Part shown: piece by piece, positions 8,949-24,513 of the stretch | Layout: every line of letters starts with the position of its first letter | Position numbering within the stretch: position 1 is the stretch's first letter | From: Candidatus Aminicenantota bacterium | Lineage (GTDB): Bacteria > Acidobacteriota > Aminicenantia > Aminicenantales > UBA4085 | Reading direction: 5' to 3' | NCBI GenBank assembly: GCA_026393865.1 | Contig: JAPKZI010000067.1 | Coordinates: forward strand, 1-36,116 | DNA length: 36,116 bases | Program-made: the position numbers and the translations under genes | Notes under the pieces: model-generated | The model's database searches: none | Seen by the model: only the letters and a program-made list of their open reading frames with translations | Told to the model about the DNA's origin: nothing

Positions 8949-9713
8949 TTACCGCACCTCGACCTTGACCAGGACGAACGTGATCGTGCCGAGAGAGGGC
9001 AGGTCGATCGAAATCTGGACGGGGTATCTTCGCTCGTCGGTCGTATACCAAGCCTTGATCGTTCCTTCCTGATAATCAAATGTCGAAAAGAACGTCCTGG
9101 TCTTCACGCACATCGTTTGGATCCGGCCGAACAGCCGCGTCGGGATCTCCTCACGTGCGGCGCTGAAGGAAACATCGCGGAGGTTCACTCCGTCATAGAT
9201 GGTGAGCGTCACCTGATCGCCGACGCGCACCTCGGCGCCAAGATAGTAATTGAGAAACATGGCCAGCGGATCCCTCGTCTGGGGCGGAACGGACACCTCT
9301 CTCGTTCGGGGGGGATCACCCCGCACGGCCAGGATCTTCGAATCCTCCGGATGAAAATATAGAATTTCCTTGAACCGCTGCGCTTTGGACAAGAACCGTT
9401 TCTCGTTGACCTCCCGTTCATACGACACGGGTTCGAGCGACCCTTCCTTGACATAGGAACGGAGAGTCGTGTCCATCCGGAAGAAAGGGCGGGCGATGCC
9501 GATCGTCCGGAACGAGGCCGTCACGCAATAGCGGGAATCCCGGCGCTCGATGGAGAGAGAGAACTTGAGGACCGTCAATCCCATCTTCTTCGCGTCATAA
9601 AAGAAGCGCAGGGACTTCCACTCCGGAGACTGCGAGTCGGAAAAAAGAAGCGGAAAGAGCGCCCCGCAGATGAATCCGGCCAGGGCGACGTTCCGAAGAA
9701 ACTGAGACCTCAT
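8949..9713 (-). CDS. DUF3108-domain exported protein
   Basis: This is a 254-residue protein. I place the start at the ATG at 9713, eight bases downstream of the PAP2 stop; an open frame continues upstream through PAP2 but is out of register with that gene. Residues 6-24 (RNVALAGFICGALFPLLF) form a signal or anchor segment. The body matches the DUF3108 pattern: an opening LRFFYDAKKMGLTVLKFSLSI, a central PLAMFLNYYLGAEVRVGDQV followed by TLTIYDGVNLRDV, and a closing WYTTDERRYPVQISID then FVLVKVEV. DUF3108 proteins are periplasmic or envelope beta-rich proteins without an assigned reaction. It is the last gene of the tightly packed seven-gene run that begins at 17040, so it probably serves the same envelope process. 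Confidence 0.85.
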   Translation of the reverse strand: MRSQFLRNVALAGFICGALFPLLFSDSQSPEWKSLRFFYDAKKMGLTVLKFSLSIERRDSRYCVTASFRTIGIARPFFRMDTTLRSYVKEGSLEPVSYEREVNEKRFLSKAQRFKEILYFHPEDSKILAVRGDPPRTREVSVPPQTRDPLAMFLNYYLGAEVRVGDQVTLTIYDGVNLRDVSFSAAREEIPTRLFGRIQTMCVKTRTFFSTFDYQEGTIKAWYTTDERRYPVQISIDLPSLGTITFVLVKVEVR

Positions 9714-9718
9714 GACGC

Positions 9719-10228
9719 TCACGATACCCATAGGGTCAGGAAACCCGCGGCGGCGCCGACGAGCGCGCCGCCGACCGCATCCGACGGGAAATGAACGCGA
9801 AGGGCGACCCGGGCCAGGCTCATCGCCAGCGCCCAGACGAGAAGAAGAGCGCCGGCCGGCCAGCCGGCCCAAGACCAGGCAATCACGGCGACGGCCACGG
9901 CCCGCGCGGCATGCCCGGAGGGAAAGGAATAAGGATCGATTTTACGATAAACGCCCCCCCAATCGCCGTCCGGACGCCGGCGCTTGACCAAGATCTTTAT
10001 GACGAAAACCGCACCGGCCGTCAGGACGAGGCCGAGAAGGAGCCTCGCGGCTCTGGATTTCCACTCCGGATTCCCGACGAGCCAGACCAACCCTGTTCCG
10101 AGGAACCAGATCCACGAATCTCCGGTCCGCGCCAGCAGGGACAGCGGGATTCTTTTCCCCCGCTTTCTCATGGCGCGCGGAAAAGCACGGGCGGGAGGAG
10201 TCTCACTGCGCGGGACCGGGCGGGACAT
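9719..10228 (-). CDS. PAP2-family membrane phosphatase
   Basis: This 169-residue integral membrane protein is of the type-2 phosphatidic acid phosphatase family, which hydrolyses lipid phosphates or pyrophosphates at the membrane face. All three catalytic motifs are visible: K78-x6-R85-P86, P103-S-G-H106, and R140-x5-H146-x3-D150. Hydrophobic helices surround them (around 38-51, 62-79, 108-121, 124-138 and 151-167). The start ATG at 10228 lies inside the end of the nucleotidyltransferase gene, overlapping by 26 bases, which implies translational coupling. With a glycosyltransferase and a nucleotidyltransferase upstream, it may dephosphorylate a lipid-linked intermediate such as a polyprenyl or phosphatidyl product. 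The substrate is not readable from sequence. Confidence 0.92.
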   Translation of the reverse strand: MSRPVPRSETPPARAFPRAMRKRGKRIPLSLLARTGDSWIWFLGTGLVWLVGNPEWKSRAARLLLGLVLTAGAVFVIKILVKRRRPDGDWGGVYRKIDPYSFPSGHAARAVAVAVIAWSWAGWPAGALLLVWALAMSLARVALRVHFPSDAVGGALVGAAAGFLTLWVS

Positions 10229-11003
10229 TCTGCACTTTCCTTTTTTCCAGATGGATCCTCAACATTTCGAGCTGATGGGGTTTATCCACGTCCATCCCGA
10301 TCTCGGCATACGGGGACAAGAGGACGCGGCCGTTCACGCCCAAACGCCCGCAGATGTGCCGCTCCGCCTTTTCGAGACTGACACGGCGAAGGGCGACGCG
10401 AGCGAGAAACCCGACTCCGAAAAGCGAGGCCATGCGAAATACGTGCTTCCGGGCGTCGGCCAATCTCATCCACACATCTTCGCTGTCCGGCTCCCGGCTG
10501 ATGCCCAGGACATGCATATCCGCGCTGCAAAGATTCAGGCTCTTTAGATGCACATACGACCGTCGCGCGCCGGGAAATGCGGCTTCCATGACTTCTTTCC
10601 GAACGACGACGAAATAAACCTCATGGGCCGCGTTCATCGTCTCCGAGATCAGCCAGTCGATGGCCTCCGGCGTTACCGCCGGGATATCCGAGGAAACAGC
10701 CAGGGCAAAGGCTGCCTCTGGGTTGCTCTCCCGGATGATGTGCCGGCCGGCCATCACGTTCTCGAAGAAACCGGAGCGGCCGGGATAAAACGACAGCGGC
10801 TTGCCGCAGTGGAGCCGGGCGTCTTCCGCCAGCCCGACGATCACGATCCTATCGACGAGCCGGGCGCCCTCGAGCGCGTCCAAAACCCATTGGATCATGG
10901 GCTTGCCGGCCAATTCCAACAAGGCCTTGGGCTTTCCCTGGGCGAAGGGATACAAGGGATCGCCCGGCATCGGGATCCCGCCAGCGGCGATAAAAGCGTC
11001 CAT
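10203..11003 (-). CDS. MobA/GlmU-like nucleotidyltransferase (NTP transferase fold)
   Basis: This 266-residue protein has an N-terminus that is a variant nucleotide-binding loop, AFIAAGGIPMPGDPLYPF, followed by GKPKALLELAGKPMIQWVLDAL. That second phrase is the sugar or base-binding signature of the NTP_transf_3 family. SSDIPAVTPEAIDWL supplies the usual acidic metal site (the D of SSDIP). Such enzymes transfer a nucleotide to a sugar-, alcohol- or cofactor-phosphate in the cytosol. The usual LAGGxSxRMG loop is replaced by one bearing PGDPLYP, so this is not standard MobA. The start ATG at 11003 directly follows the stop of the upstream gene, with GGAG eight bases ahead. I recall this subtype beside homologues of the 11004-11897 gene in other phyla, which needs a neighbourhood search to confirm. 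Confidence 0.8.
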   Translation of the reverse strand: MDAFIAAGGIPMPGDPLYPFAQGKPKALLELAGKPMIQWVLDALEGARLVDRIVIVGLAEDARLHCGKPLSFYPGRSGFFENVMAGRHIIRESNPEAAFALAVSSDIPAVTPEAIDWLISETMNAAHEVYFVVVRKEVMEAAFPGARRSYVHLKSLNLCSADMHVLGISREPDSEDVWMRLADARKHVFRMASLFGVGFLARVALRRVSLEKAERHICGRLGVNGRVLLSPYAEIGMDVDKPHQLEMLRIHLEKRKVQNVPPGPAQ

Positions 11004-11897
11004 TCAATTCAACTCCATGATCTGAGGTTTGAGCCCGATCCGGTCGATCAGGCTGCTGAGATCGTCCCGGGAAAGCGGCTTCCCGGAGACGGCCACCAGG
11101 GCGGCTTCGATCAAATTCGCCCCGAAAGAACGTCCGTCCAGGACCGGGGTCGTCGTAATCAGATATTTCACGCCGGCCGCGCGGAACATGTCGCGGTCCT
11201 CGGCCGTCGTGGAATTCGTCACGATGACCTTGTTTCCCAGATCATCGGGCCGATATCGCTTGATGTATTGACAATCGCCGGCGATGACGGCCGCCCAACG
11301 AAAATATCGACCCCATTTCGGCGTCCGGCGCTCCTGTTTTTCGCCGATCGGATAAAGCCAGCGGAACGGCAGGCGGCTGATGACGGGCATCAGACAAACG
11401 GCCAGGCTCGTGACGCTTTTGGCCTTGTGCAAAGGCAGGGGCAGACCGAAAGCGAATAGGAAATCGCCGAAGACGCAGCGGTACCCTCCGTCCAGGAAAG
11501 ACCTGGCCAGGCCCCAGCGGTCGATGCCGCTTGTCAGCAGCGCTTTCTTCTCCGTGAGAAAAGAACCGATCTCGCGGTCCATGACGGGAACGACCTGCCC
11601 TTCCAAAGTGGCCTTCAGGCCGGAGCCGTCGACGAGCGGGGTCTTTTTGACGAAGCGAAAGATCGGCCTAGCGGAATGAAGGGGATAATACTTCCGGCCG
11701 ACGAGAAAGCCGAGATCGGTTCCGCCCGCGCCGAAAGCATCCACGAAACCGTCCAATTCTTTGAACAGCCGGGCGGCTTTTTCGAAATCGCCGTCCGTCC
11801 CGATCCGTTCCAGTCGGACCCTCTGCCCCAGGAGCTCGATCTCGACACATTTGTCCCGCCGCGACGACCCGAGGCTGATGCTGACCGCCCGTTTCAT
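11004..11897 (-). CDS. Conserved protein of unknown function (often labelled 'quinate 5-dehydrogenase' in databases)
   Basis: This is a 297-residue soluble protein. The N-terminus (MKRAVSISLGSSRRDKCVEI) and a glycine-rich segment (VDAFGAGGTDLGFLVG) suggest an alpha/beta nucleotide-binding fold. The family name I remember for close relatives is quinate 5-dehydrogenase. I see neither the AroE-type shikimate motif near the N-terminus nor its NxTxxxK-type catalytic lysine, so that label is doubtful. Other conserved-looking patches are FVKKTPLVDGSGLKATLEG, the aromatic FRWAAVIAGDCQYIKRY and LITTTPVLDGRSFGANLIEAAL. The last resembles an active-site or ligand loop. Start and stop are coupled to both neighbours: ATGA overlap with the GT4 gene at 11894-11897, and stop directly abutting the nucleotidyltransferase start. 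Confidence 0.7.
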   Translation of the reverse strand: MKRAVSISLGSSRRDKCVEIELLGQRVRLERIGTDGDFEKAARLFKELDGFVDAFGAGGTDLGFLVGRKYYPLHSARPIFRFVKKTPLVDGSGLKATLEGQVVPVMDREIGSFLTEKKALLTSGIDRWGLARSFLDGGYRCVFGDFLFAFGLPLPLHKAKSVTSLAVCLMPVISRLPFRWLYPIGEKQERRTPKWGRYFRWAAVIAGDCQYIKRYRPDDLGNKVIVTNSTTAEDRDMFRAAGVKYLITTTPVLDGRSFGANLIEAALVAVSGKPLSRDDLSSLIDRIGLKPQIMELN

Positions 11898-13048
11898 GAT
11901 CCCCTTGTTATTCCGGCCGGCTCGGCCGACGGCAAGGCCGTGGCTCCTCTGGCGGCAAAATATGAAAGAACGCGCTGGGCGCAGTTCCTCCAGGAATACG
12001 TCTCCCGTTCGGCCAGAGCTCCGCGGCGCAGATCTCTGTAAAGCCTCTCGTTTCGCATGAGTTCAACGACGGCCGAGGCGAATTCGCGAGGGGGCGTTCT
12101 CTCGTCCAGATGCATGGCCGTTTTGAGATGGGCCGTAACGCCCCGCGTCCGTTCACTGCAAAGGCGGACAGTCGGGAGCCCCGTAACGAGGGCTTCGATC
12201 TGGGCCAAGCACTGTGCGTCGAGCAGGGAAGGATTGACGAACACATGGGCTCGGGCAAAGAGCCGTCCGATCTCCTGAGGACGGAGTTCTCCGTGCCATT
12301 CGACTTTCGGATAGCGGCGCGACCGGATTTCTTTCAGGAATCTTCGAAAATAAAAAACGTCCCAGGTTTTTCCCCCGACGATGTCGAGATGATACCCGTC
12401 GGGCAGAAATTGGGACATCTTCAAGAGATAGATCTGATTTTTCATTTCCCGGATTTGCCCAACGAAGAGAATCCGGACGACGCCGTTCTCCGGCGGCGCG
12501 TCCGGGCCGGGAACAAAGAGGTCTAAATCGGCCCCGAATCCCGCCACCGCGACTCGGGATAGGCCGACCTCTTGAAGATATGATTTCATGTCCTCCGTCG
12601 GGGCGAATACCAGAGTCGAAGCGCTGAGAAATCGGATGATACGATCTTCGCAATATTTGGCCGCGGCCGGTATGCGCAAAGGCTTCAATGGAACGCTGTT
12701 GAGAAGGAAATGGCGATATCTCGTGTGGACCATGGAAAAGACAGGAAGCCGGTGTTTTTTTGCATAGCGGACTCCTGCGCGGTCGGTCGGAGCCATATTG
12801 TGGGTGAAGATCACGTCGGGATGGAATCGAGCGATCGCTCCGAAGAGGGATCCGGGCGCGAAATAGTCCTTCGCTTCAAGGACAAGGAAATCCGCGGAAT
12901 TCTCTTCCGGAAGAAAGTCGGCGGGTTTTCTATGACAAAGACATAGGATCGAATGCCCCAATCTCTTGAATTCAACGCTGAGACGGCGAGGGGTGAGGTT
13001 ATATCCGCTGATCTTATCCAACACGCCGGCGCAGGTCAGGATATTCAT
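11894..13048 (-). CDS. GT4-type (GT-B fold) glycosyltransferase
   Basis: This is a 384-residue protein. The start is taken at the ATG at 13048, 11 bases after the TonB receptor stop and preceded by GGGTGG. The longer frame to 13141 would run into the receptor gene and lacks a ribosome site. The N-terminal Rossmann half begins with LTCAGVLDKISGYNLTPRRLS and contains DVIFTHNMAP. The C-terminal half has the nucleotide-sugar part: VRILFVGQIREMKNQIYLLK, YHLDIVGG, VEWHGELRPQEIGRLFARAHVFVNPSLLDAQCLAQIEALVTGLPTV, where the E-x7-E of GT4 enzymes is represented by the Q-IEAL-VTGLP region. It probably adds a sugar to a lipid or glycan acceptor at the inner membrane face. Donor and acceptor are unknown. 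It is part of the seven-gene run. Confidence 0.9.
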   Translation of the reverse strand: MNILTCAGVLDKISGYNLTPRRLSVEFKRLGHSILCLCHRKPADFLPEENSADFLVLEAKDYFAPGSLFGAIARFHPDVIFTHNMAPTDRAGVRYAKKHRLPVFSMVHTRYRHFLLNSVPLKPLRIPAAAKYCEDRIIRFLSASTLVFAPTEDMKSYLQEVGLSRVAVAGFGADLDLFVPGPDAPPENGVVRILFVGQIREMKNQIYLLKMSQFLPDGYHLDIVGGKTWDVFYFRRFLKEIRSRRYPKVEWHGELRPQEIGRLFARAHVFVNPSLLDAQCLAQIEALVTGLPTVRLCSERTRGVTAHLKTAMHLDERTPPREFASAVVELMRNERLYRDLRRGALAERETYSWRNCAQRVLSYFAARGATALPSAEPAGITRGS

Positions 13049-13059
13049 CCGATTCCACC

Positions 13060-15372
13060 CTAAAAACGGTATTCCACGCCGAACACGGGGATGAGCGGCG
13101 CCTGGTAGACGACATCGGGTTTGTTCTCGATCCGGTTCCAATAATAACGGTCCATGTTCTTCCGGTTGAAGGCGTTGACGATGCTCAGGAAGAGATTGAG
13201 GCTGGAGCGGGAAAAGACCCAGCGGCGGTCGAGACGAAAATTGAACGTCATGTAGTCCGGATAGCGGCGGGCTAAGATCTGGCTCTTGTCGATCATGCCC
13301 ATATTAGCCTGCCGCGAGGCCTCTACATCGAACGGCGTGTACGGCACGCCGCCGGCCAGGTTCCAACGAACGCTGACGTTCCATTTGTCGTTGGGCTTAT
13401 AGCCTCCGACGACGGTCATGATGTAGCGATTGTCGTTGACACGGTCCCTCTGGATCCCAAAATAGTCCCGGAAAGTCGATCGGAACAGAGAAACGCTGAA
13501 GATCCCGTAGAATTTCTCAATGATCCTCTTTTGGAGAAAGACCTCCACGCCCCTGGCATGAGCGGTCCCCGTGTCGACGAGCGCCGCATACGTCCGGAAG
13601 AACTCGAAATCGATCCCGCTGTCCATGACGAACAAGCTCGGGTTTTCGGGCGCTAATGGAAAATACCGGTATTCCTTGTCATAGAGCTCGAAACTCAGAC
13701 GGAGCGACTCGGAGGGGTCGAACTTGAGCCCCAGGATGGCATGGACGGCCAGCGGGTCCCGGTTCAATTTATTGGCGGCATTGCTCGCCAGGAGGAACAT
13801 CGGCAGGACCTGACGGAAAATCCCGAAGCTGGCATTAAGCGTCAAGTTCGAACTCAGACCGAACGAAGCTGCAAAGCGGGGGGAAAGATGGGCCCGCCGG
13901 TTATAGAAAAAATAATCGGCCCGGACTCCGACGGACAACGTGAGAGGCTCCCAAGGCCGAAGGATGAAGGTCAGAAAGGCTCCGGCCATCGACGTCCTCG
14001 TCCGGCTCTGCTCGTCGGCGGCCGGGATGTCCATCCCCCAACGATTGATGTATTCCGTGAAATAATTTTTGAAGTCCGCGGTCTCCCAACGGATGTCCGC
14101 GCCGAATTCGGCCTTGTTCCGCCGGCCGAGACTGACGGCGTTGATGTTGCGGAGGACGAGCGAGTCGGTGCCCTCTTCGTTTAAAATATAGTCCATCCAA
14201 GCCGAGGAAGGAACCAGGTCCGTCAAGCGATAGGAGATCCTGTAGAAGGAATAGGAGAGCGTCGTGTTCGAACTTCCCGCGCCGCCGGCCCATTCGGAGA
14301 GCCAGTTCAAACCGACCGTGTTCTGCCGGGAGGAATAGTCCAGGGCCCCCATGAAGCCTTCCCCGACGGCCGTGTCCAAGCCATAAGAGAGGGCGCTTTG
14401 ACCATAGACGTTCAGGAGGGTGAACTTGTCCCGCGGCGTCGGGTCGAACGTCAGCTTGAAGTGGACGTCGCCGAAGCGCGGCGCGACGCCGTAGCCGATC
14501 ATTTTAGCGATGAGGTCATGGTAATTCCGGCTGAAAGAGAAGAGCCAGGAGGCCTTTTTTCCCAGGAACGGACCTTCGGCGCTGGCGCCGAAACCGGCCA
14601 AGTTGAGGTTCAGCTGGTACGTCGTCCGTTCGCGCGATCCCTCGCGGAACTTGATGTCGATGATCGAGGACATGCGGTTGCCGAAGCGGGCCGCGTACCC
14701 GCCCGTATAAAAATTGACGTCCTCGATGAAGAGGGCGTTGATGATGCCGATCATCCCGCCACTGCTGCCCTGGCTCTGGAGGTGGTTGACGTTCGGCATC
14801 TCGATGTTGTCGATATAGAATCCATTCTCCCAGGGACTTCCGCCGCGAACGATGAGATCGTTCGAGATCTCGCTGACGTGGGACGTGCCGGGTAAAGCGT
14901 TCAAAGCCCGGCTGACGTCCATGACCGTCCCCGGCATCCTGACCGTTTCTTCAAAATTGAGGGTCGCCACGCTCGAGGCCTTCCGCTCCTCGGCGGGAAG
15001 GCGTTCGCCCTGGACGTTGACCTGAACCCGGAGTTGAGGAACGAGCGCGGCCAGTTCAATGGCAAGAACGGTGGATTCGCCGGCCCGGATCCGAACGTCC
15101 GTTTTCGTCAGGCCCGCATATCCCGGCTGGACGAAATCGACGGTATAGGATCCCGCTGGGACTTGTCCGACGAGGAACCGTCCTTCCCTGTCCGTGAGCA
15201 TGTTCGTACGGTGTTCTCGAATGAGGACAACGACATCGCCGAGCGGTTTTTTATTCGCCGCATCGATCACCCGACCTTTCAACGTCCCGAAGAGGGTTTG
15301 CGAAAAAGCCGCGGCATGGAAAAATGGAATGAGGGCGGCGATGACTAAAATATATTTTGTTGAACGCGTCAT
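13060..15372 (-). CDS. TonB-dependent outer-membrane receptor with carboxypeptidase-regulatory-like N-domain
   Basis: This 770-residue outer-membrane protein has a signal peptide at 1-24 (ending AAAFSQ). Residues about 28-108 are a carboxypeptidase-regulatory-like beta-sandwich (GTLKGRVIDAANKKPLGDVVV ending with a TVDFVQPGYAGL strand). The plug follows (MPGTVMDVSRALNALPG, SNDLIVRGGSPWENGFYIDNIEMPNVNH) and then a long beta-barrel of alternating aromatic strands. The protein ends VFGVEYRF, the terminal aromatic that BAM recognises. This is the Bacteroidota/Acidobacteriota-type receptor architecture. I see no TonB-box sequence clear enough to name. The substrate is unknown. Its position between a radical SAM protein (18 bases upstream) and a GT4 enzyme (11 bases downstream) suggests a role in the same envelope pathway, either as importer or as exporter of a product. 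Confidence 0.95.
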   Translation of the reverse strand: MTRSTKYILVIAALIPFFHAAAFSQTLFGTLKGRVIDAANKKPLGDVVVLIREHRTNMLTDREGRFLVGQVPAGSYTVDFVQPGYAGLTKTDVRIRAGESTVLAIELAALVPQLRVQVNVQGERLPAEERKASSVATLNFEETVRMPGTVMDVSRALNALPGTSHVSEISNDLIVRGGSPWENGFYIDNIEMPNVNHLQSQGSSGGMIGIINALFIEDVNFYTGGYAARFGNRMSSIIDIKFREGSRERTTYQLNLNLAGFGASAEGPFLGKKASWLFSFSRNYHDLIAKMIGYGVAPRFGDVHFKLTFDPTPRDKFTLLNVYGQSALSYGLDTAVGEGFMGALDYSSRQNTVGLNWLSEWAGGAGSSNTTLSYSFYRISYRLTDLVPSSAWMDYILNEEGTDSLVLRNINAVSLGRRNKAEFGADIRWETADFKNYFTEYINRWGMDIPAADEQSRTRTSMAGAFLTFILRPWEPLTLSVGVRADYFFYNRRAHLSPRFAASFGLSSNLTLNASFGIFRQVLPMFLLASNAANKLNRDPLAVHAILGLKFDPSESLRLSFELYDKEYRYFPLAPENPSLFVMDSGIDFEFFRTYAALVDTGTAHARGVEVFLQKRIIEKFYGIFSVSLFRSTFRDYFGIQRDRVNDNRYIMTVVGGYKPNDKWNVSVRWNLAGGVPYTPFDVEASRQANMGMIDKSQILARRYPDYMTFNFRLDRRWVFSRSSLNLFLSIVNAFNRKNMDRYYWNRIENKPDVVYQAPLIPVFGVEYRF

Positions 15373-15390
15373 CCGAGAGGGCTCCGACCT

Positions 15391-17040
15391 CTATTGAGAC
15401 GTTCCCATTCCCGCTCTTGAGCAAGAACGCTTGTCAATGGGACGGGCCGTCGCTCCCGATGAAAGCGTGCGCCGGGAATCGCCGGGGATATCATAAGGAT
15501 ACAAAGCGGACTTCCGGAGTCCGTCCAGGCCGGCCCGGACTTTCCGGACGGCCTGCGCCATCGATCTTTTAGAGCCGAGAGCCGTTCCCCGGATCAAGAG
15601 AAAATCAAGAACCTCCGCCTTCGGCCGGCCGATCAACTTGATTGTCTTAAAGAGCCCGGTCAAGGCCCCGGACTTCAAGCAGATCCCGGCATAAAACCCA
15701 AAGAGCTTGAGGATCAGGAACCACGACACGTGGGCCATGAAAAGCCTTTGGATCCGAGGATCCCGAGCGTCCTTCCTTTTACGTTCGAGATTCCCGCAAT
15801 ACCGGAGAAGCCTCCGGCTGTCATAAAACCAAGCAAGAAGAGCGCCGTAGTCCTCGACGATCTTCGCATACGGCCGACCCGTCTTCAAAGGCATGAGGTT
15901 ATATCGGAAATAAAGAGGATGGTCGAGCAGTCTGCCGGCGGCGGCGGCCTTGGCCCGAAACCTCGATCCGATCACGGGATTAATCAGGTTCAGCATCAAA
16001 AATGGCGTTTGGCAGATGTCGAGGAGGTCCCGGAGGCGCCGGCCGACATCCTCGGGCTCCCGGTCGAGGCCCAAAATGAAGGAGAGATAGGGGACGATCC
16101 CGTGCCGGACAAATGTTTCGACCTGCTCCGGCATCGGACCCCATAGGTTCTGTCGTTTGCGGGAGGCGGCGAGGGCCTCTTCGGACGGGCTCTCGACGCC
16201 CACAAAGGCCGCCGTGACGTTGGCCTCGCGCAGTTTTTTCATGACTTCGGGATAACGAGCGACGTTTAGAGACACCTGGATCCCGAAAACGAAGGGGTAG
16301 CGACGGCGCTCCTGGAAGCGGATGATGACATCCAGAAATTCCAGAATCTTGTCCTCGATGCCGCCCCCGAAATTGTCGTCCCCGAAGATCACGAATCCTC
16401 GATGAATCGTCGCCAGGGACTCGAGTCTCCGCTCGAGAAGATCTGGATCGATCGTCCGAACTCCTCGGCCATAGATATGGCCGATATTGCAGAAACTGCA
16501 ATCGAAAGGACAGCCGCGGGTCGTCTGGAGGGTACCGGCCAGGTATTTCTTCCCCCGCAGCAGCTCGTAATCGAACACTTCCGCGTTCATATCGGCCGGC
16601 GCCGGGGAATTGAAGGAACGGACGCCGGACCCAATGAGGTCGAGGAGATCGGTCGTCCCGATCTCTCCTTGAAAAACGAGGTCGAAATGGGCGAGGTAGT
16701 CGTCGTGATTCAGTGAGACGTCAGGGCCTCCGACGCAGGAGATGACGTTCGGGAAACGACTTTTCAGCGTCTTCCCATAGAGGATGGCCGGATTGGTCTC
16801 TTGATTGACTCCCCGGATGAGCTGCATGGAGGAGGCCAGAAAAAAGACCCGATCGTTCTTATGGCGTTCGGCCTTGTGGAGGACTTCGCGGAACGTGTCG
16901 CAGATGAAAAGGAGGTCGTCGCTCTTGAAGGACGCGGATCTTCGGACGGCGACGGCGACGGCGAGCGGTCCCAAGGGCATGATCAGGCGCCGAAACCCTA
17001 GATCGTTACTGGCCAGAAAGACGATATAAACGTTCCGCAT
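15391..17040 (-). CDS. Radical SAM protein with N-terminal B12-binding-like domain
   Basis: This is a 549-residue protein. C177, C181 and C184 form the CxxxCxxC site (TRGCPFDCSFCNIGHIYG) that binds the 4Fe-4S cluster and S-adenosylmethionine. FGDDNFGGG and GVESPSEEALAASRKRQN are further core strands of the class-B layout. The first 150 residues have the cobalamin-binding fold pattern (PNVISCVGGPDVSLNHDDYL, DLVFQGEIGTTDLLDLI), but no DxHxxG, so B12 binding is uncertain. The C-terminal part has a hydrophobic segment (WFLILKLFGFYAGICL) and a basic tail. This points to membrane association and a lipid-like or envelope substrate, as in hopanoid- or lipid-modifying relatives. It is the first gene of the seven-gene minus run, and has a strong promoter at 17069-17098. 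Confidence 0.92.
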   Translation of the reverse strand: MRNVYIVFLASNDLGFRRLIMPLGPLAVAVAVRRSASFKSDDLLFICDTFREVLHKAERHKNDRVFFLASSMQLIRGVNQETNPAILYGKTLKSRFPNVISCVGGPDVSLNHDDYLAHFDLVFQGEIGTTDLLDLIGSGVRSFNSPAPADMNAEVFDYELLRGKKYLAGTLQTTRGCPFDCSFCNIGHIYGRGVRTIDPDLLERRLESLATIHRGFVIFGDDNFGGGIEDKILEFLDVIIRFQERRRYPFVFGIQVSLNVARYPEVMKKLREANVTAAFVGVESPSEEALAASRKRQNLWGPMPEQVETFVRHGIVPYLSFILGLDREPEDVGRRLRDLLDICQTPFLMLNLINPVIGSRFRAKAAAAGRLLDHPLYFRYNLMPLKTGRPYAKIVEDYGALLAWFYDSRRLLRYCGNLERKRKDARDPRIQRLFMAHVSWFLILKLFGFYAGICLKSGALTGLFKTIKLIGRPKAEVLDFLLIRGTALGSKRSMAQAVRKVRAGLDGLRKSALYPYDIPGDSRRTLSSGATARPIDKRSCSRAGMGTSQ

Positions 17041-17068
17041 GAGTCGGACACCGCGGCGAAGCGGCCTG

Positions 17069-17098
17069 ATTATATCGAATGCCCGAAAAGAAAGTCAA
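17069..17098 (-). promoter_or_regulatory. Strong sigma-70 promoter of the seven-gene operon
   Basis: The minus strand carries TTGACT (17093-17098), an 18-base spacer and a perfect TATAAT (17069-17074), about 30 bases before the radical SAM start. It is back to back with the plus-strand promoter at 17126-17154. Confidence 0.72.
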
Positions 17099-19276: not shown

Positions 19277-20812
19277 ATGACCATGAATCCGAACGAATCC
19301 CCTCTCGAGATCAGCGGAGGCGTGATCGCCCGGAACACGTTCATGAACCTGGCCGGTCTGGCCCTGCCCGTCATCGTCGGCGTGGCCACCATCCCCTTGA
19401 CGATCCGCCTGATGGGGACCGAACGCTTCGGCATCCTGTCCCTCGCTTGGGTCGTTTTCGGCTATTTCAGCTATCTAGATCTCGGCCTGGGCATGGCCAC
19501 GACCCGCTTCGTTGCCGAGGCCCTGGGGAAGCGGGACATGGAGCAGATCCCGCGCTACTTCTGGACGACCGTGACCTTCCAGGCCTTCATGGGCTTTCTC
19601 GGAGCGGCGGCCTTGTCCCTCTCGGCCCCCTATCTCATCGACCACGTCCTGAACATCCCCGCGGGCTTCATCCGCGAATCCAAAACGACCTTCTATCTCC
19701 TGGCGGTCTCGCTTCCCCCCGTCCTCGTTTCGGCCTCATTCCGGGGAGCCCTGGAAGCGCGCCAGCGGTTCGACCTGGTGAACCTGGTCAAGATCCCGTC
19801 GAGCGTTCTCAATTACGGGCTGCCGTCCCTCGGAGCGGCGCTCGGCCTGAAGCTTCCCGGGATCATCGTTCTCCTGATCATCACCCGCCTCCTGACGCTC
19901 GTCGTCTTAATCGTTCTCTGTTTCAAGGTCTTTCCCGTTCTGCGCCGCCGGTTCGTGTTCCAGAGCCAGGCGCTCAAACCCGTGCTCCGCTATGGGATCT
20001 GGGTGATGGTCTCGAATGCGCTCGGCCCCATTCTGGTCTATCTGGACCGATTCCTGATCGGAGCCCTCCTGACGGTGACCGCCGTTAGCTTTTACACGGC
20101 GCCCTACGAAGCCGTGATGCGGCTGGGCATCGTTCCTTACAGCCTACTGATGACCCTTTTCCCGATGTTCAGCGCTCTCCAGGGCGGAGGCGACGAGAAA
20201 CTCAAGCGGTTTTTTTTCCGGCAGTCCGTCAAGTTTCTTCTCGTGTCGATGGGTTTCGTGGCCGTGATCCTAGTGTTCTTTGCCGACCGATTCCTCGGTC
20301 TCTACCTCGGGGCGGAATACGCCCTAAAAGGAACCTTGGTTTTTCAGATCATCGCCGTCGGTTTCTTCCTCTATTCCCTGACGATCGTGCCGTACGGCTT
20401 TTTGCAGGGCATCGGCCGGTCCGACCTCGTGGCCAAATTCTATCTGGCCGAGCTCGTCGTCTACGTTCCCCTGGCCTGGCTGACGATTCGGGCATGGGGG
20501 ATCGCCGGAGCCGCTTTGGCCTGGACGACCCGAGTGGCGATGGATATGGTCCTCATGTTCATCGCCGCCCGGAAACTCGGCAAGTTCAAATTCTCCGCGC
20601 TTTTCGGGGGGGGGACCGGGCAGGCGGCCCTTTGGCTGGCCGGTTTGTCGGTCGTCGGGATCGGCTTGAAGCGGGTTGCGTGGGGAACGCCGGTCTTCGC
20701 CTTGGTCCTGCTCGTTTTCGTCGTCGTTCTCTGGTTTCGCGTTTTCGATGCCGAAGAGAAATCCTGGATTCGGACCGGCCTTCACAAAATGAAGGCCAAG
20801 GTGTCAAGGTAG
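19277..20812 (+). CDS. Polysaccharide/lipid flippase of the MOP superfamily (Wzx-like)
   Basis: This 511-residue integral membrane protein has about 12-14 hydrophobic helices. The N-terminus (GGVIARNTFMNLAGLALPVIVGVATIPLTIRLMGTERFGILSLAWVVFGYFSYLDLGLGMATTRFVAEALG) is the typical start of oligosaccharide flippases, with the charged DLGLGMATTRFVAE at the end of helix 2. These proteins move undecaprenyl-linked oligosaccharides across the inner membrane. A second ATG lies two codons in (19283). Neither has an evident ribosome site, consistent with a very short leader. The stop is seven bases from the GT2 start, so the two form an operon. I see no Wzy polymerase or Wzz in the window, so this could equally handle a single-repeat glycan. 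Confidence 0.93.
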   Translation: MTMNPNESPLEISGGVIARNTFMNLAGLALPVIVGVATIPLTIRLMGTERFGILSLAWVVFGYFSYLDLGLGMATTRFVAEALGKRDMEQIPRYFWTTVTFQAFMGFLGAAALSLSAPYLIDHVLNIPAGFIRESKTTFYLLAVSLPPVLVSASFRGALEARQRFDLVNLVKIPSSVLNYGLPSLGAALGLKLPGIIVLLIITRLLTLVVLIVLCFKVFPVLRRRFVFQSQALKPVLRYGIWVMVSNALGPILVYLDRFLIGALLTVTAVSFYTAPYEAVMRLGIVPYSLLMTLFPMFSALQGGGDEKLKRFFFRQSVKFLLVSMGFVAVILVFFADRFLGLYLGAEYALKGTLVFQIIAVGFFLYSLTIVPYGFLQGIGRSDLVAKFYLAELVVYVPLAWLTIRAWGIAGAALAWTTRVAMDMVLMFIAARKLGKFKFSALFGGGTGQAALWLAGLSVVGIGLKRVAWGTPVFALVLLVFVVVLWFRVFDAEEKSWIRTGLHKMKAKVSR

Positions 20813-20819
20813 GGCGAGA

Positions 20820-21797
20820 ATGAACCCTCAGAACCGCGAATGGCCCCGCGTCGCCGTCATCGTCCTCAACTGGAACGGCTGGAAAGACACCCTGGAATGC
20901 CTCGAGTCCCTCCGGCGTCTGGATTATCCCGCTTTCAAGACGATCCTGGTCGATAACGGATCAACCAATGACTCGGCGGCCAGGATCGCGGAATGGCGGC
21001 AGGGAAAGATGGACGAGGCCGAGCTGACGATCATCCGGACGGAAGAGAACCTGGGATTCGCCGGCGGGAATAACGTCGGCATTCGTCACGCCCTGGACGC
21101 CGGATTCGATTTCGTCTGGCTCCTCAACAACGACACGATCGTGGACGAACGGTCGCTCATCGAACTGGTCCGCCTCGCCCGGGCCGACGAGCGGATCGGC
21201 GCGGCCGGCTCGCTCGTCCTCTTTCATCGGGCGCCGGACAGGATCAATTCCGCGGGGATCTGCGTCGGTCGGTTCGGGCGCCGGGCCCGGCTGCTCGGCT
21301 TGAACAGGAATAAGAGCGAAGCGGAATTCTTGAAGCGGCGCGAAGTGGACGCCGTCTCGGGATGTTCCATGCTCCTTCGATCCCGGGCGCTCCGCGACGT
21401 CGGTCTCTTGGATGAACGCTATTTTCTATATCTGGAAGAGGTCGATCTGTGCACGCGGCTGAAACAGAAGGAATTCCGCTGCTGGGTCGTGCCCGAAAGC
21501 ATCATTTGGCACAAACAATGGGGTTCCATCCAGCCCTATCCCGAGCTCGCCGATTACTACCTATCGCGGAGCCAGGTCCTCTATATCAGAAAATTCTCGT
21601 CCGGGCTGCATGCCCTCCTCGATCACGCCCTCTTTTTCGGGAAATGCCTGCCGCTGGTCCTCTTAAGAAGCCTGAAAATCCGGGATTTCGCCTGCTTCAA
21701 GGCGTTTTGGCTGGGCATGCACCATGGATTTTCGGGCCGCTTCGATTATCGCTGGCCCCTCAAGGCGCGCGCCGAAACCTCGAGCGGAGAGGGGTGA
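20820..21797 (+). CDS. GT2-family glycosyltransferase (rhamnosyltransferase-like)
   Basis: This 325-residue protein has a GT-A fold. VAVIVLNWNGWKDTLECLESL is the nucleotide-sugar binding strand. VDNGSTNDS and NLGFAGGNNVGIRHAL are the signature of the rhamnosyl- or galactofuranosyl-type GT2 branch. LLNNDTIVDE supplies the DxD-equivalent metal site, and LDERYFLYLEEVDLCTRL carries the catalytic-base region (the ED of the family). The C-terminal part has WHKQWGSIQPYPELADYYLSRS followed by aromatic-rich, probably membrane-proximal sequence. The ATG at 20820 follows AGGGCGAG. It is followed four bases later by a methyltransferase gene. The enzyme most likely adds a sugar to a lipid-linked glycan exported by the adjacent flippase. 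Confidence 0.93.
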   Translation: MNPQNREWPRVAVIVLNWNGWKDTLECLESLRRLDYPAFKTILVDNGSTNDSAARIAEWRQGKMDEAELTIIRTEENLGFAGGNNVGIRHALDAGFDFVWLLNNDTIVDERSLIELVRLARADERIGAAGSLVLFHRAPDRINSAGICVGRFGRRARLLGLNRNKSEAEFLKRREVDAVSGCSMLLRSRALRDVGLLDERYFLYLEEVDLCTRLKQKEFRCWVVPESIIWHKQWGSIQPYPELADYYLSRSQVLYIRKFSSGLHALLDHALFFGKCLPLVLLRSLKIRDFACFKAFWLGMHHGFSGRFDYRWPLKARAETSSGEG

Positions 21798-21801
21798 GCG
21801 G

Positions 21802-22476
21802 ATGGCCCTGCCGAAGTTCCTGAAAAAGATCGACGAGACGCTCTTCGGCCGCGTCCGGAATCAGTTCGCCCTGATGCTGGAGAAGGAGTGCGCGGGCTGC
21901 GAGTCTTTGCTTGACGTCGGCTGCGGGGCCAACTCTCCCGTCCGGGCGTTTTCCAAGAAGATCCCCCGCGTCGTGGGCGTCGACAATTTCCAGCCGTCCA
22001 TCGATAAAAGCCGGGCCGCGGGCATCCACGGGGAGTACCGGAAGATGAACGTCCTGGAAATGGACAAGAAATTTCCGCCGGAATCCTTCGATGTCGTCGT
22101 CGCCCTGGACCTGATCGAACATCTCGAAAAGAAGGACGCCCTCCGGCTCATCGAGGTCATGGAACGACTGGCCAGACGGAAGGTCATCATTTTCACGCCG
22201 AACGGCTTCCTAGAACAGCATGAATTCGACGGCAACCGCAGCCAGGTCCACATCTCCGGCTGGGAGATCGACGAGATGCGCGCCCTCGGCTATCGCGTCA
22301 GCGGCGTCCACGGCTGGAAGGCACTGCGCAGCGAATGCGCTTATATCAAATGGAAGCCGCGGAAGTTCTGGGTGATCGTTTCGGTCTTGAGCCTGCCCTG
22401 GACGACGCGCCATCCCCGCCGCGCCTTCCATATCTTTTGCGTCAAGGACAAGCTCCCGCCCCGAAAGGACCGATAA
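21802..22476 (+). CDS. Class I SAM-dependent methyltransferase
   Basis: This is a 224-residue protein. The start is taken at the ATG at 21802, four bases after the GT2 stop; an earlier ATG at 21724 lies inside GT2. SLLDVGCGANSPVRAF is motif I (SAM-binding), VVGVDNFQPSIDKSRAAG contains the acidic motif II residue, and FDVVVALDLIEHLEKKDALRL is motif IV. The C-terminus (HISGWEIDEMRALGYRVSGVHGW) resembles the methyltransferase-11 and rfb-associated methyltransferases. In this operon a role in methylating a sugar of the surface glycan is likely, though a small-molecule substrate cannot be excluded. Confidence 0.88.
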   Translation: MALPKFLKKIDETLFGRVRNQFALMLEKECAGCESLLDVGCGANSPVRAFSKKIPRVVGVDNFQPSIDKSRAAGIHGEYRKMNVLEMDKKFPPESFDVVVALDLIEHLEKKDALRLIEVMERLARRKVIIFTPNGFLEQHEFDGNRSQVHISGWEIDEMRALGYRVSGVHGWKALRSECAYIKWKPRKFWVIVSVLSLPWTTRHPRRAFHIFCVKDKLPPRKDR

Positions 22477-22517
22477 AAATGACAGGCTCTATCGACAATT
22501 ACGGGTCTCGGGCATGA

Positions 22518-22546
22518 TTGACAAGGCGGACGAATTTATTAAAGAT
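22518..22546 (+). promoter_or_regulatory. Possible sigma-70 promoter for the acetyltransferase gene
   Basis: A perfect TTGACA (22518-22523) is followed, 16-17 bases on, by a poor -10 (TAAAGA or AAAGAT). The perfect -35 is the reason to read the in-frame TTG at 22518 as promoter rather than start codon. Confidence 0.35.
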
Positions 22547-22556
22547 AGGGTCCTCC

Positions 22557-23180
22557 ATGAGAAACGTCATTTCTAAGCTCCTTCTCAGGCCGATCGGCAG
22601 GTTATCGAGCAAGGGGCTGGCAGCTTTGCGCTCGCCCCAGCCATGGATCGACAGCGGCGTCCTCAGCCTGGGGGCTTACAGCTACGAAGCGCCCGAGGTC
22701 ATCCATTTCGAAGGGGACAAGAACAAGGTCGTGATCGGGAAATTCTGTTCCATTTCGCGCGATGTCAAGATCTTCGTCGGAGGGAACCATCCCAGCCGTT
22801 GGGTCTCCTCGTTCCCGTTCCGGGTCCGCTTCGATCTCCCCGGGAAATTCCAGGACGGGCATCCAGCCTCGCGGGGCGACGTCGTCATCGGCAACGATGT
22901 CTGGATCGGCATGGCAGCGACCATCCTCTCGGGAGTCAAGATCGGACACGGAGCCATCGTCGCGGCCCGGTCGTTCGTCGTCAAGAACGTCCCGCCCTAC
23001 GCCGTTGTCGGGGGCAACCCGGCGGAGTTCCTTTTCTACAGGTTCAAGGAGGAGTACATCCGGGCCTTGCTGGAGATCAAGTGGTGGGACTGGCCCATTC
23101 AAAAGATCCTGGACAGCGTCCCGTTGTTGAACGGAGGGTCCGTTGAGGAATTCATCCGGTTCGCCCGCCGTCCGCTTTGA
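22557..23180 (+). CDS. CatB-related O-acetyltransferase (left-handed beta-helix)
   Basis: This is a 207-residue protein. I start at the ATG at 22557 (MRNVISKLLLRPIG), because the in-frame TTG at 22518 coincides with a TTGACA box and has no ribosome site. The hexapeptide-repeat helix is plain: VVIGKFCSISRDVKIF, VVIGNDVWIGMAATILSGVKIGHGAIVAARSFVV and KNVPPYAVVGGNPAEFLF. GGNHPSRWVSSFPF holds the probable catalytic histidine of the CatB/xenobiotic acetyltransferase branch. The C-terminal helix carries WWDWPIQKI, which is typical of that branch. It transfers acetyl from acetyl-CoA, most likely to a sugar hydroxyl of the surface glycan, given the cluster context. Antibiotic acetylation is a weaker alternative. 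Confidence 0.88.
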   Translation: MRNVISKLLLRPIGRLSSKGLAALRSPQPWIDSGVLSLGAYSYEAPEVIHFEGDKNKVVIGKFCSISRDVKIFVGGNHPSRWVSSFPFRVRFDLPGKFQDGHPASRGDVVIGNDVWIGMAATILSGVKIGHGAIVAARSFVVKNVPPYAVVGGNPAEFLFYRFKEEYIRALLEIKWWDWPIQKILDSVPLLNGGSVEEFIRFARRPL

Positions 23181-23200
23181 CGTTGGAACACTTACACATG

Positions 23201-23228
23201 TTGCCCGCCGGAGACCAAGTGGTATAAT
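23201..23228 (+). promoter_or_regulatory. Promoter of a predicted leaderless GNAT-DUF2156 transcript
   Basis: TTGCCC (23201-23206), a 16-base spacer and an extended -10, TGGTATAAT (TATAAT at 23223-23228). The ATG at 23237 begins eight bases after the -10, where the transcription start is expected, so there is no room for a ribosome site. Confidence 0.6.
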
Positions 23229-23236
23229 AACGGGTC

Positions 23237-23644
23237 ATGAAAATCCGGAAAGCCCGTACCTCAGACCTCCCCGGGATCCGGCGGCTGGCCGAATCCCTCG
23301 GCCTCGACTATCCCGGACTGGAGAACGACCGGTTCAGGGTCGCCGAAGACGGCGAAGTGATCGCCGGCATAGTCGCCTTGAAATATCGGGCCGATTGCGA
23401 GGAACTGGTGGCCCTGGGAGTCGATCCGCGCTATCGCAAAAAGGGGTTGGGACGAAAGCTCGTCCGGGTCTTGCTCGACGAAACCCCCACGGATGTCTTT
23501 TTGGCGACGACCATTCCCGAGTTCTTCGAACGATGCGGATTCGTCCGGGCTTCGGCCGCGCCGGCCGGAATGGCCAAGGACCCGTCCTGGTGTGAAGGCT
23601 GCCGGAAGGACCGCTGCGTGATCATGGTCAAGACATCCGCATGA
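23237..23644 (+). CDS. GNAT-family N-acetyltransferase with C-terminal cysteine cluster
   Basis: This is a 135-residue protein. KIRKARTSDLPGIRRLAESL is the N-terminal GNAT strand-helix. ELVALGVDPRYRKKGLGRKLVRVLLDE carries the acetyl-CoA pyrophosphate loop (RxxGLG), and FFERCGFVRA is the last core strand-helix. It ends with a small Cys-rich tail, WCEGCRKDRC, whose spacing could hold a metal; most GNATs lack this. The family acetylates an amine with acetyl-CoA. The stop overlaps the ATG of the next gene (ATGA at 23641-23644). The start is probably leaderless. Substrate unknown. Confidence 0.85.
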   Translation: MKIRKARTSDLPGIRRLAESLGLDYPGLENDRFRVAEDGEVIAGIVALKYRADCEELVALGVDPRYRKKGLGRKLVRVLLDETPTDVFLATTIPEFFERCGFVRASAAPAGMAKDPSWCEGCRKDRCVIMVKTSA

Positions 23645-24513
23645 ATCCGCCCCGCTACCCCGAGTTCAAGGCTGTCGGCCTCGAGGACCGGGACATCTTC
23701 CGGTCGTTTCTGACCTGCGTTCCCATCGACGCCTGCGAGATGAATTTCGGCAATACTTTCATCTGGCGGAATTTCGACCATCCCCGCTTCACGGTCATCC
23801 AAAACAACCTCTGCCTTCTTTTCGAGCCGCCCGACGAGCCCGCCTACTTCCTTCAGCCGTTCGGAACCTCGGCTATTCCGGAGACGATCCGGACGTGCCT
23901 GGAGCACGCTCCTCGTCTGTCGCGGATTCCCGCGTCGTTCGCCGAGAGATATTGTTCCGAGGGATTCCAATGCGCGACCGATCCGGATAATTTCGACTAC
24001 GTCTACGCGACCCGCGACCTCATCGAGCTCAAGGGAAAAAAATACGACGGCAAGCGGAACCGGATCAGGAAATTCGAACGGAACCACGCCCACAGGTACC
24101 TGAAGCTGACCGCCGACCATCTGGAGGCCTGTCGCCGCCTCTTCGAGGAATGGGTCGGCGAGAAGGACTCGCTCAATCCGATGGCCGGAGCCCAGCAGGA
24201 CGCCATACAACAGGCCTTGACCCATTTCGAAGCGCTCGGCTTGTCCGGCGGGGCGATCGAGGTCGAGGGGACCGTCGCCGCCTTCTCCATCGGCGAACAG
24301 CTGAACCCCGATACGGCGGTGATCCACATCGAGATCGTCAGCCCGAAGTACGAAGGCCTCGCCCAGCTGATGAACCGGGAGTTCATCAAGAACGAGCTGG
24401 CCGGCTACGCCTTTATCAACCGGGAACAGGACATGGGCGTGCCCGGCCTGCGCAAGGCCAAACAGTCCTATCAGCCCCACCACCTGGTCGAAAAATATCA
24501 CATCTGGAAATAG
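23641..24513 (+). CDS. DUF2156 / phosphatidylglycerol lysyltransferase C-domain protein
   Basis: This is a 290-residue soluble protein. FKAVGLEDRDIFRSFLTCVP, CEMNFGNTFIWRN, DYVYATRDLIELKGKKYDGKRNRIRKFER and FINREQDMGVPGLRKAKQSYQPHHLVEKYHIW are signatures of DUF2156, the double-GNAT fold found at the C-terminus of MprF. There is no N-terminal membrane domain, so this is a stand-alone cytosolic form. Relatives transfer aminoacyl groups from aminoacyl-tRNA to lipids or peptides, but the substrate of stand-alone forms is not established. It overlaps the upstream GNAT by four bases, implying coupled translation and a common process. Its stop is five bases from the convergent oxidoreductase gene. 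Confidence 0.88.
   Translation: MNPPRYPEFKAVGLEDRDIFRSFLTCVPIDACEMNFGNTFIWRNFDHPRFTVIQNNLCLLFEPPDEPAYFLQPFGTSAIPETIRTCLEHAPRLSRIPASFAERYCSEGFQCATDPDNFDYVYATRDLIELKGKKYDGKRNRIRKFERNHAHRYLKLTADHLEACRRLFEEWVGEKDSLNPMAGAQQDAIQQALTHFEALGLSGGAIEVEGTVAAFSIGEQLNPDTAVIHIEIVSPKYEGLAQLMNREFIKNELAGYAFINREQDMGVPGLRKAKQSYQPHHLVEKYHIWK

Follow-up and report, generated by a model that had tools for sequence, protein, structure and literature searches.

The row of seven genes in the window (the whole stretch of DNA analysed, 36,116 nucleotides, which makes up an entire contig of the draft Aminicenantota genome G000; 240 contigs, 86% complete) very probably consists of a conserved core of three genes to which other genes have been added locally. 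The core includes the uncharacterised fourth gene of the row (P4), a nucleotidyltransferase gene (NTP), and a gene for a PAP2 phosphatase. The row is more than a chance assemblage, because the order P4–NTP–PAP2 recurs in distant phyla. No description of this trio was found in the literature searched.

All seven open reading frames (8949-17040 in the ORF translations) are located on the minus strand and are closely spaced (Table 1). The radical SAM and TonB receptor genes are separated by 18 bases (15373-15390), the TonB receptor and GT4 genes by 11 bases (13049-13059), and the PAP2 and DUF3108 genes by 5 bases (9714-9718). The GT4 gene overlaps P4 by 4 bases (11894-11897), NTP overlaps the PAP2 gene by 26 bases (10203-10228), and P4 adjoins NTP with a gap of 0 bases. 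Matches above the Pfam cut-off were obtained for the radical SAM, GT4, MobA-like NTP transferase, PAP2, and DUF3108 domains as well as for both the plug and the barrel of the TonB receptor; for P4, the search of Pfam and NCBIfam at E 0.01 returned no family. The promoter-like site at 17098-17069 matches the consensus at 11 of 12 positions and is the best of the four such sites in the region (shuffled sequences gave 2.0 ± 1.4). The spacing of the genes and the strong promoter at 17069, both reported by the first-pass annotation, were recovered on re-reading the sequence, and the row presumably represents one transcription unit. Another cluster, comprising genes of a flippase-like protein, a GT2 glycosyltransferase, a methyltransferase, a hexapeptide transferase, and an LPG_synthase_C protein, resides nearby on the plus strand (19277-24513).

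Table 1. Features of the seven-gene row and their placement in the window; assignments to the core or to local additions are those considered probable.
Feature	Coordinates	Strand	Remarks
Radical SAM protein	15391..17040	-	549 aa; CxxxCxxC motif; putative local addition, outside the core
TonB-dependent receptor with CarboxypepD_reg domain	13060..15372	-	770 aa
GT4 glycosyltransferase	11894..13048	-	ATG at 13048; putative local addition
P4	11004..11897	-	297 aa; unnamed family, AAR-like fold; probable core gene 1
NTP, TTHA0179-type nucleotidyltransferase	10203..11003	-	266 aa; probable core gene 2
PAP2 phosphatase	9719..10228	-	169 aa; probable core gene 3
DUF3108 protein	8949..9713	-	ATG at 9713; putative local addition
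Promoter-like site TTGACT-18-TATAAT	17069..17098	-	upstream of the seven-gene row

The scan of named genomes for P4 yielded 30 loci from Chloroflexota, Bacillota, Actinomycetota, and one Desulfobacterales genome, which, together with the window and the genomes G003 and G007, gave a set of 33. NTP directly follows P4 in 18 of the 33, and a PAP2 gene is present in 16 of these 18 loci (L011 and L017 lack it); none of the remaining 15 loci, a few of which end close to P4, features NTP after P4. In the P4 tree, inferred from 31 loci (L024 and L033 were omitted), the 18 loci with NTP form a single clade with a support of 100/100, i.e., 18 of the 31 rows. In a sample of 151 genomes around G342, the genome of a Chloroflexota locus, P4 was found in 27 genomes. 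The 38 matches comprise 13 trio-type copies, 8 additional stand-alone ones, 1 fragment, and 16 in frames of 687–785 aa, classed as fusion-sized by the frame length. Within the same sample, NTP was found in 13 genomes, exactly those possessing the trio-type P4, and in none of the other 138 at E 1e-20. The two genes adjoin in 12 of the 13 genomes; in G496, they are on separate contigs.

Among the relatives of G000 (59 genomes with G000 itself), P4 was detected in 2 of the 58 others, G003 and G007, which belong to another genus of the same family. Both display the order TonB–P4–NTP–PAP2 without GT4, and NTP and PAP2 in G007 constitute a single frame of 505 aa. G001, the only other genome sampled from the window's genus (92% complete), gave no matches for P4, NTP, the radical SAM protein, the TonB receptor, GT4, or DUF3108 at the thresholds used. 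In the phylum of the window, P4 is present in 7 of 297 genomes, the six besides the window all being fusions of P4 with acyl-ACP reductase (AAR). The window is nearer to the Chloroflexota rows than to G003 and G007 in the P4 tree, with a weak support (81/82), and groups with G003 and G007 in the NTP tree (94/92).

The first-pass annotation interpreted the whole row as a pathway of a glycosylated lipid or cofactor led by the radical SAM protein. Of this interpretation, the operon-like row and the association of P4, NTP, and PAP2 hold, but the single seven-gene pathway is not supported. It had been suggested that scattering of the genes in related genomes would make their adjacency incidental. 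Such scattering was found for three of the seven genes, since the radical SAM and GT4 orthologues are elsewhere in the sister genomes and a DUF3108 homologue is absent from the 20 relatives searched; the order TonB–P4–NTP–PAP2 is retained in the two sisters that have the core. The radical SAM protein (CPFDCSFC at the CxxxCxxC motif; 58 bits with Radical_SAM in Pfam; a weak N-terminal match to the B12-binding domain of 16.7 bits against the cut-off of 32.1) has orthologues in both core-bearing sisters (69% and 59%): in G003, a separate gene of the same contig, ca. 8 kb past PAP2 and behind unrelated genes; in G007, a gene on a contig other than that of the core. G003 also has a GT4 orthologue (58%), placed on a different contig, C63, where it adjoins the genes of PIG-L, LPG_synthase_TM, GCS2, and phosphatidylserine decarboxylase. 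These orthologues, along with the close spacing and the single promoter, would fit one glycolipid or cofactor pathway of all seven genes, merely dispersed in the sister genomes, but the wider distribution makes it improbable: G009 (89% complete) harbors the radical SAM orthologue without P4 or NTP, no GT4 was found in G007 at E 1e-20, DUF3108 is missing from 20 of the 20 relatives searched, and the 15 Chloroflexota trio loci show no matches for TonB, GT4, or DUF3108. The seven-gene pathway as a whole was therefore set aside, as the radical SAM, GT4, and DUF3108 genes do not travel with the core; on present evidence, they appear to be local additions. A glycolipid remains a plausible candidate for the product. 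Two Chloroflexota trio loci also have a radical SAM gene beside them on the opposite strand (L017, 11678-13150, 29% identical to that of the window; L032, 12168-13613, 23%), which may be due to chance.

In the window's family, each of the three trio genomes carries the TonB receptor gene upstream of P4, and in both core-bearing sisters it comes directly before P4. The branches of the TonB tree comprising the window, the trio genomes, and the DUF3419/NUDIX neighborhoods fall into one unresolved group, hence co-descent of the receptor with the core is unsupported. Homologues of the receptor in the relatives adjoin genes of AMP-binding proteins of the acyl-CoA ligase type (in G006, on contig C131 of G000, and in G011), are situated beside a NUDIX gene (on contig C195 of G000), or share the row with a DUF3419 gene (G018), hinting at lipid- or CoA-related company. 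At L097, L099, and L101, in three genomes, the receptors adjoining a gene of this AMP-binding type belong to one clade.

The NTP protein matches TTHA0179 (2dpw) over the full length (E 8e-39, Z 26.3, 229 of 231 residues aligned); no function of TTHA0179 was found in the literature searched. All 17 rows keep D106 and the pair D238/D240, the likely metal ligands, unchanged, and the active site looks intact. The second structural match is CobY (3rsb, Z 19.3), tied with GlmU (19.0) and IspD (18.8). Hence one may think of the salvage of a corrinoid or a similar cofactor: it would be imported through the TonB receptor, NTP would act in the manner of CobY, PAP2 would stand in for the phosphatase of the last step, and the radical SAM protein of the B12 type would use the product. 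CobS is required after CobY. It was absent from 14 of the 16 trio genomes, including G000, G003, and G007 (the same search gave a match in 10 of 14 control genomes), which weakens the CobY-type role of NTP in cobamide synthesis; together with the lack of TonB matches at the Chloroflexota trio loci, this renders corrinoid salvage highly improbable. The third core protein, PAP2, exceeds the Pfam cut-off with 72.9 bits, and its translation features KxxxxxxRP, PSGH, and RxxxxxHxxxD, the three PAP2 signature motifs. It is below every NCBIfam cut-off (e.g., SepP, 35.6 of 250 bits).

The structure model of P4 is confident (pLDDT 90). In the second-look structural alignment, it was closest to AAR (6jzu; Z 14.5, rmsd 3.9, 240 of 297 residues aligned), followed by the TAD of carmabin (Z 14.0); unrelated kinds of protein appeared from Z 10.3 downwards. 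Foldseek placed AAR only seventh in a list headed by poorly superposing sugar-binding proteins and dehydrogenases, and the P4 profile compared with the PDB sequences gave chance matches only. The profile alignment of P4 with AAR (hhalign, trimmed inputs) was collinear and weak (P 0.047, not significant alone). The catalytic cysteine (C294 in S. elongatus) and the GxxGxxG motif are described for the AAR/TamH reductase family (PMC9594044). According to the weak alignment, Asn261 of P4 takes the place of this cysteine and SGIDRWG of the window P4 that of the glycine-rich loop, suggesting that P4 has lost both; the AAR rows retain the cysteine in 20 of 21 cases. N261 and R127, located at these two places, are invariant in all 31 stand-alone P4 rows and occur in three and none, respectively, of the seven fused N-terminal halves, so the stand-alone protein is under a constraint of its own.

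In the fusions (L033, L074–L079), P4 makes up the N-terminal half of proteins of ca. 700 aa, the other half being AAR. At L033 (3472-7761), two such fusions are arranged in tandem, the second with Gly at the place of the catalytic cysteine; the P4 part of the L079 fusion is shortened. At L074 (2345-6986), the fusion shares its row with genes of a PlsC-like acyltransferase, a hexapeptide transferase, and a reductase of the male-sterility type. Other P4 genes adjoin those of AAR, PigE-type class III aminotransferases, SRPBCC, or SCP2 proteins. In Bacillota (L018, L019, L022, L025, and L028), P4 is preceded by the gene of an HTH-like protein together with a dusB-like one and often followed by greA- and lysS-like genes, most of these names being our presumptive assignments.

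Two other readings of P4 were considered. The protein might be a structural or regulatory pseudo-enzyme partnering AAR, in line with their fusions and adjacency. However, no AAR gene was found in G000, G003, or G007 at E 1e-10, and a search of 14 Chloroflexota trio genomes gave AAR matches in 8 and none in 6. R127, kept in every stand-alone P4 and in no fused half, also speaks against it, and this role is very unlikely. In the window genome, P4 as an AAR partner was rejected for the lack of an AAR match there and in the two sisters. For the same reason, the connection of P4 with acyl groups may not extend to these genomes. Alternatively, P4 could have kept oxidoreductase activity on the AAR fold by means of different residues, so that the trio would reduce an acyl or related group. 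The fold of the model and the set of polar residues, kept far more strictly in the stand-alone rows than in the fused halves, agree with such an enzyme, but the missing loop and cysteine at the aligned places and the lack of a dinucleotide-binding match in Pfam or NCBIfam make it rather unlikely.

The preferred reading, put forward tentatively, is that the core trio serves to make or recycle an activated group that is attached to a lipid or a carrier. Much firmer is the frame of this reading: P4–NTP–PAP2 is very probably an old conserved unit, to which the TonB receptor was attached in the window's family and the radical SAM, GT4, and DUF3108 genes were added locally. NTP would activate a phosphorylated small group; P4, with an AAR fold devoid of the catalytic cysteine and the dinucleotide loop, would bind or modify an acyl or phosphorylated partner; PAP2 would remove phosphate from the lipid product or the carrier at the membrane; and the TonB receptor would handle the product or a precursor. 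The gene order, the co-inheritance, and the fold resemblance of the P4 model are observed; the lipid substrate, the order of the steps, the non-reductase nature of P4, and the handling by the receptor are what we infer, and the model taken as a whole is possible rather than probable. The link to lipids draws on the AAR-like model of P4, its fusions with AAR, and the neighbors of other P4 genes. It is counted against the lipid model that the Chloroflexota neighbors beyond the trio (histidine kinase, MFS, PCC domain, beta-lactamase fold, and MutS2 proteins) are not consistently lipid genes; the absence of PAP2 at L011 and L017, the weak profile similarity to AAR, and its low rank in Foldseek also speak against the model. 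A more far-reaching and doubtful proposition is that P4 represents a new type of enzyme on a rebuilt AAR fold, with the cysteine replaced by the invariant asparagine and the glycine-rich loop by an arginine loop. Together with NTP and PAP2, it would make a nucleotide-activated lipid or head group not described so far and common to Anaerolineae and the TonB-bearing family of the window; Anaerolineae are generally regarded as having no outer membrane. Overall, a strictly co-inherited trio with one member lacking a family name points to a pathway invisible to present genome annotation. Such a pathway would provide a function for the TTHA0179-type nucleotidyltransferases, whose structure has been solved, and show that the AAR fold is adaptable to another use.

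Several known systems resemble the trio in part. The P4 model has the overall fold of AAR (TIGR04058; PDB 6jzu/6jzy) and of the PigE and TamH thioester-reductase domains, but P4 matches neither TIGR04058 nor any related model by sequence and, judging from the weak alignment, lacks the catalytic cysteine and the GxxGxxG loop possessed by AAR and TamH. With the fatty amine route of tambjamine (TamH) and prodigiosin (PigE), the common point is that some P4 genes are accompanied by a reductase resembling AAR and a class III aminotransferase of the PigE type, whereas the row in the window contains neither a reductase nor an aminotransferase gene of this kind, and the search of G000 gave no AAR match. 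The PAP2 protein of the window shares the Pfam match and the motifs with the undecaprenyl-diphosphatase/PAP2 family but stays under the NCBIfam cut-offs; PAP2 enzymes accept other substrates as well. The closest counterpart of NTP is TTHA0179 of Thermus thermophilus (PDB 2dpw), a hypothetical transferase that NTP matches in profile and fold over the full length.
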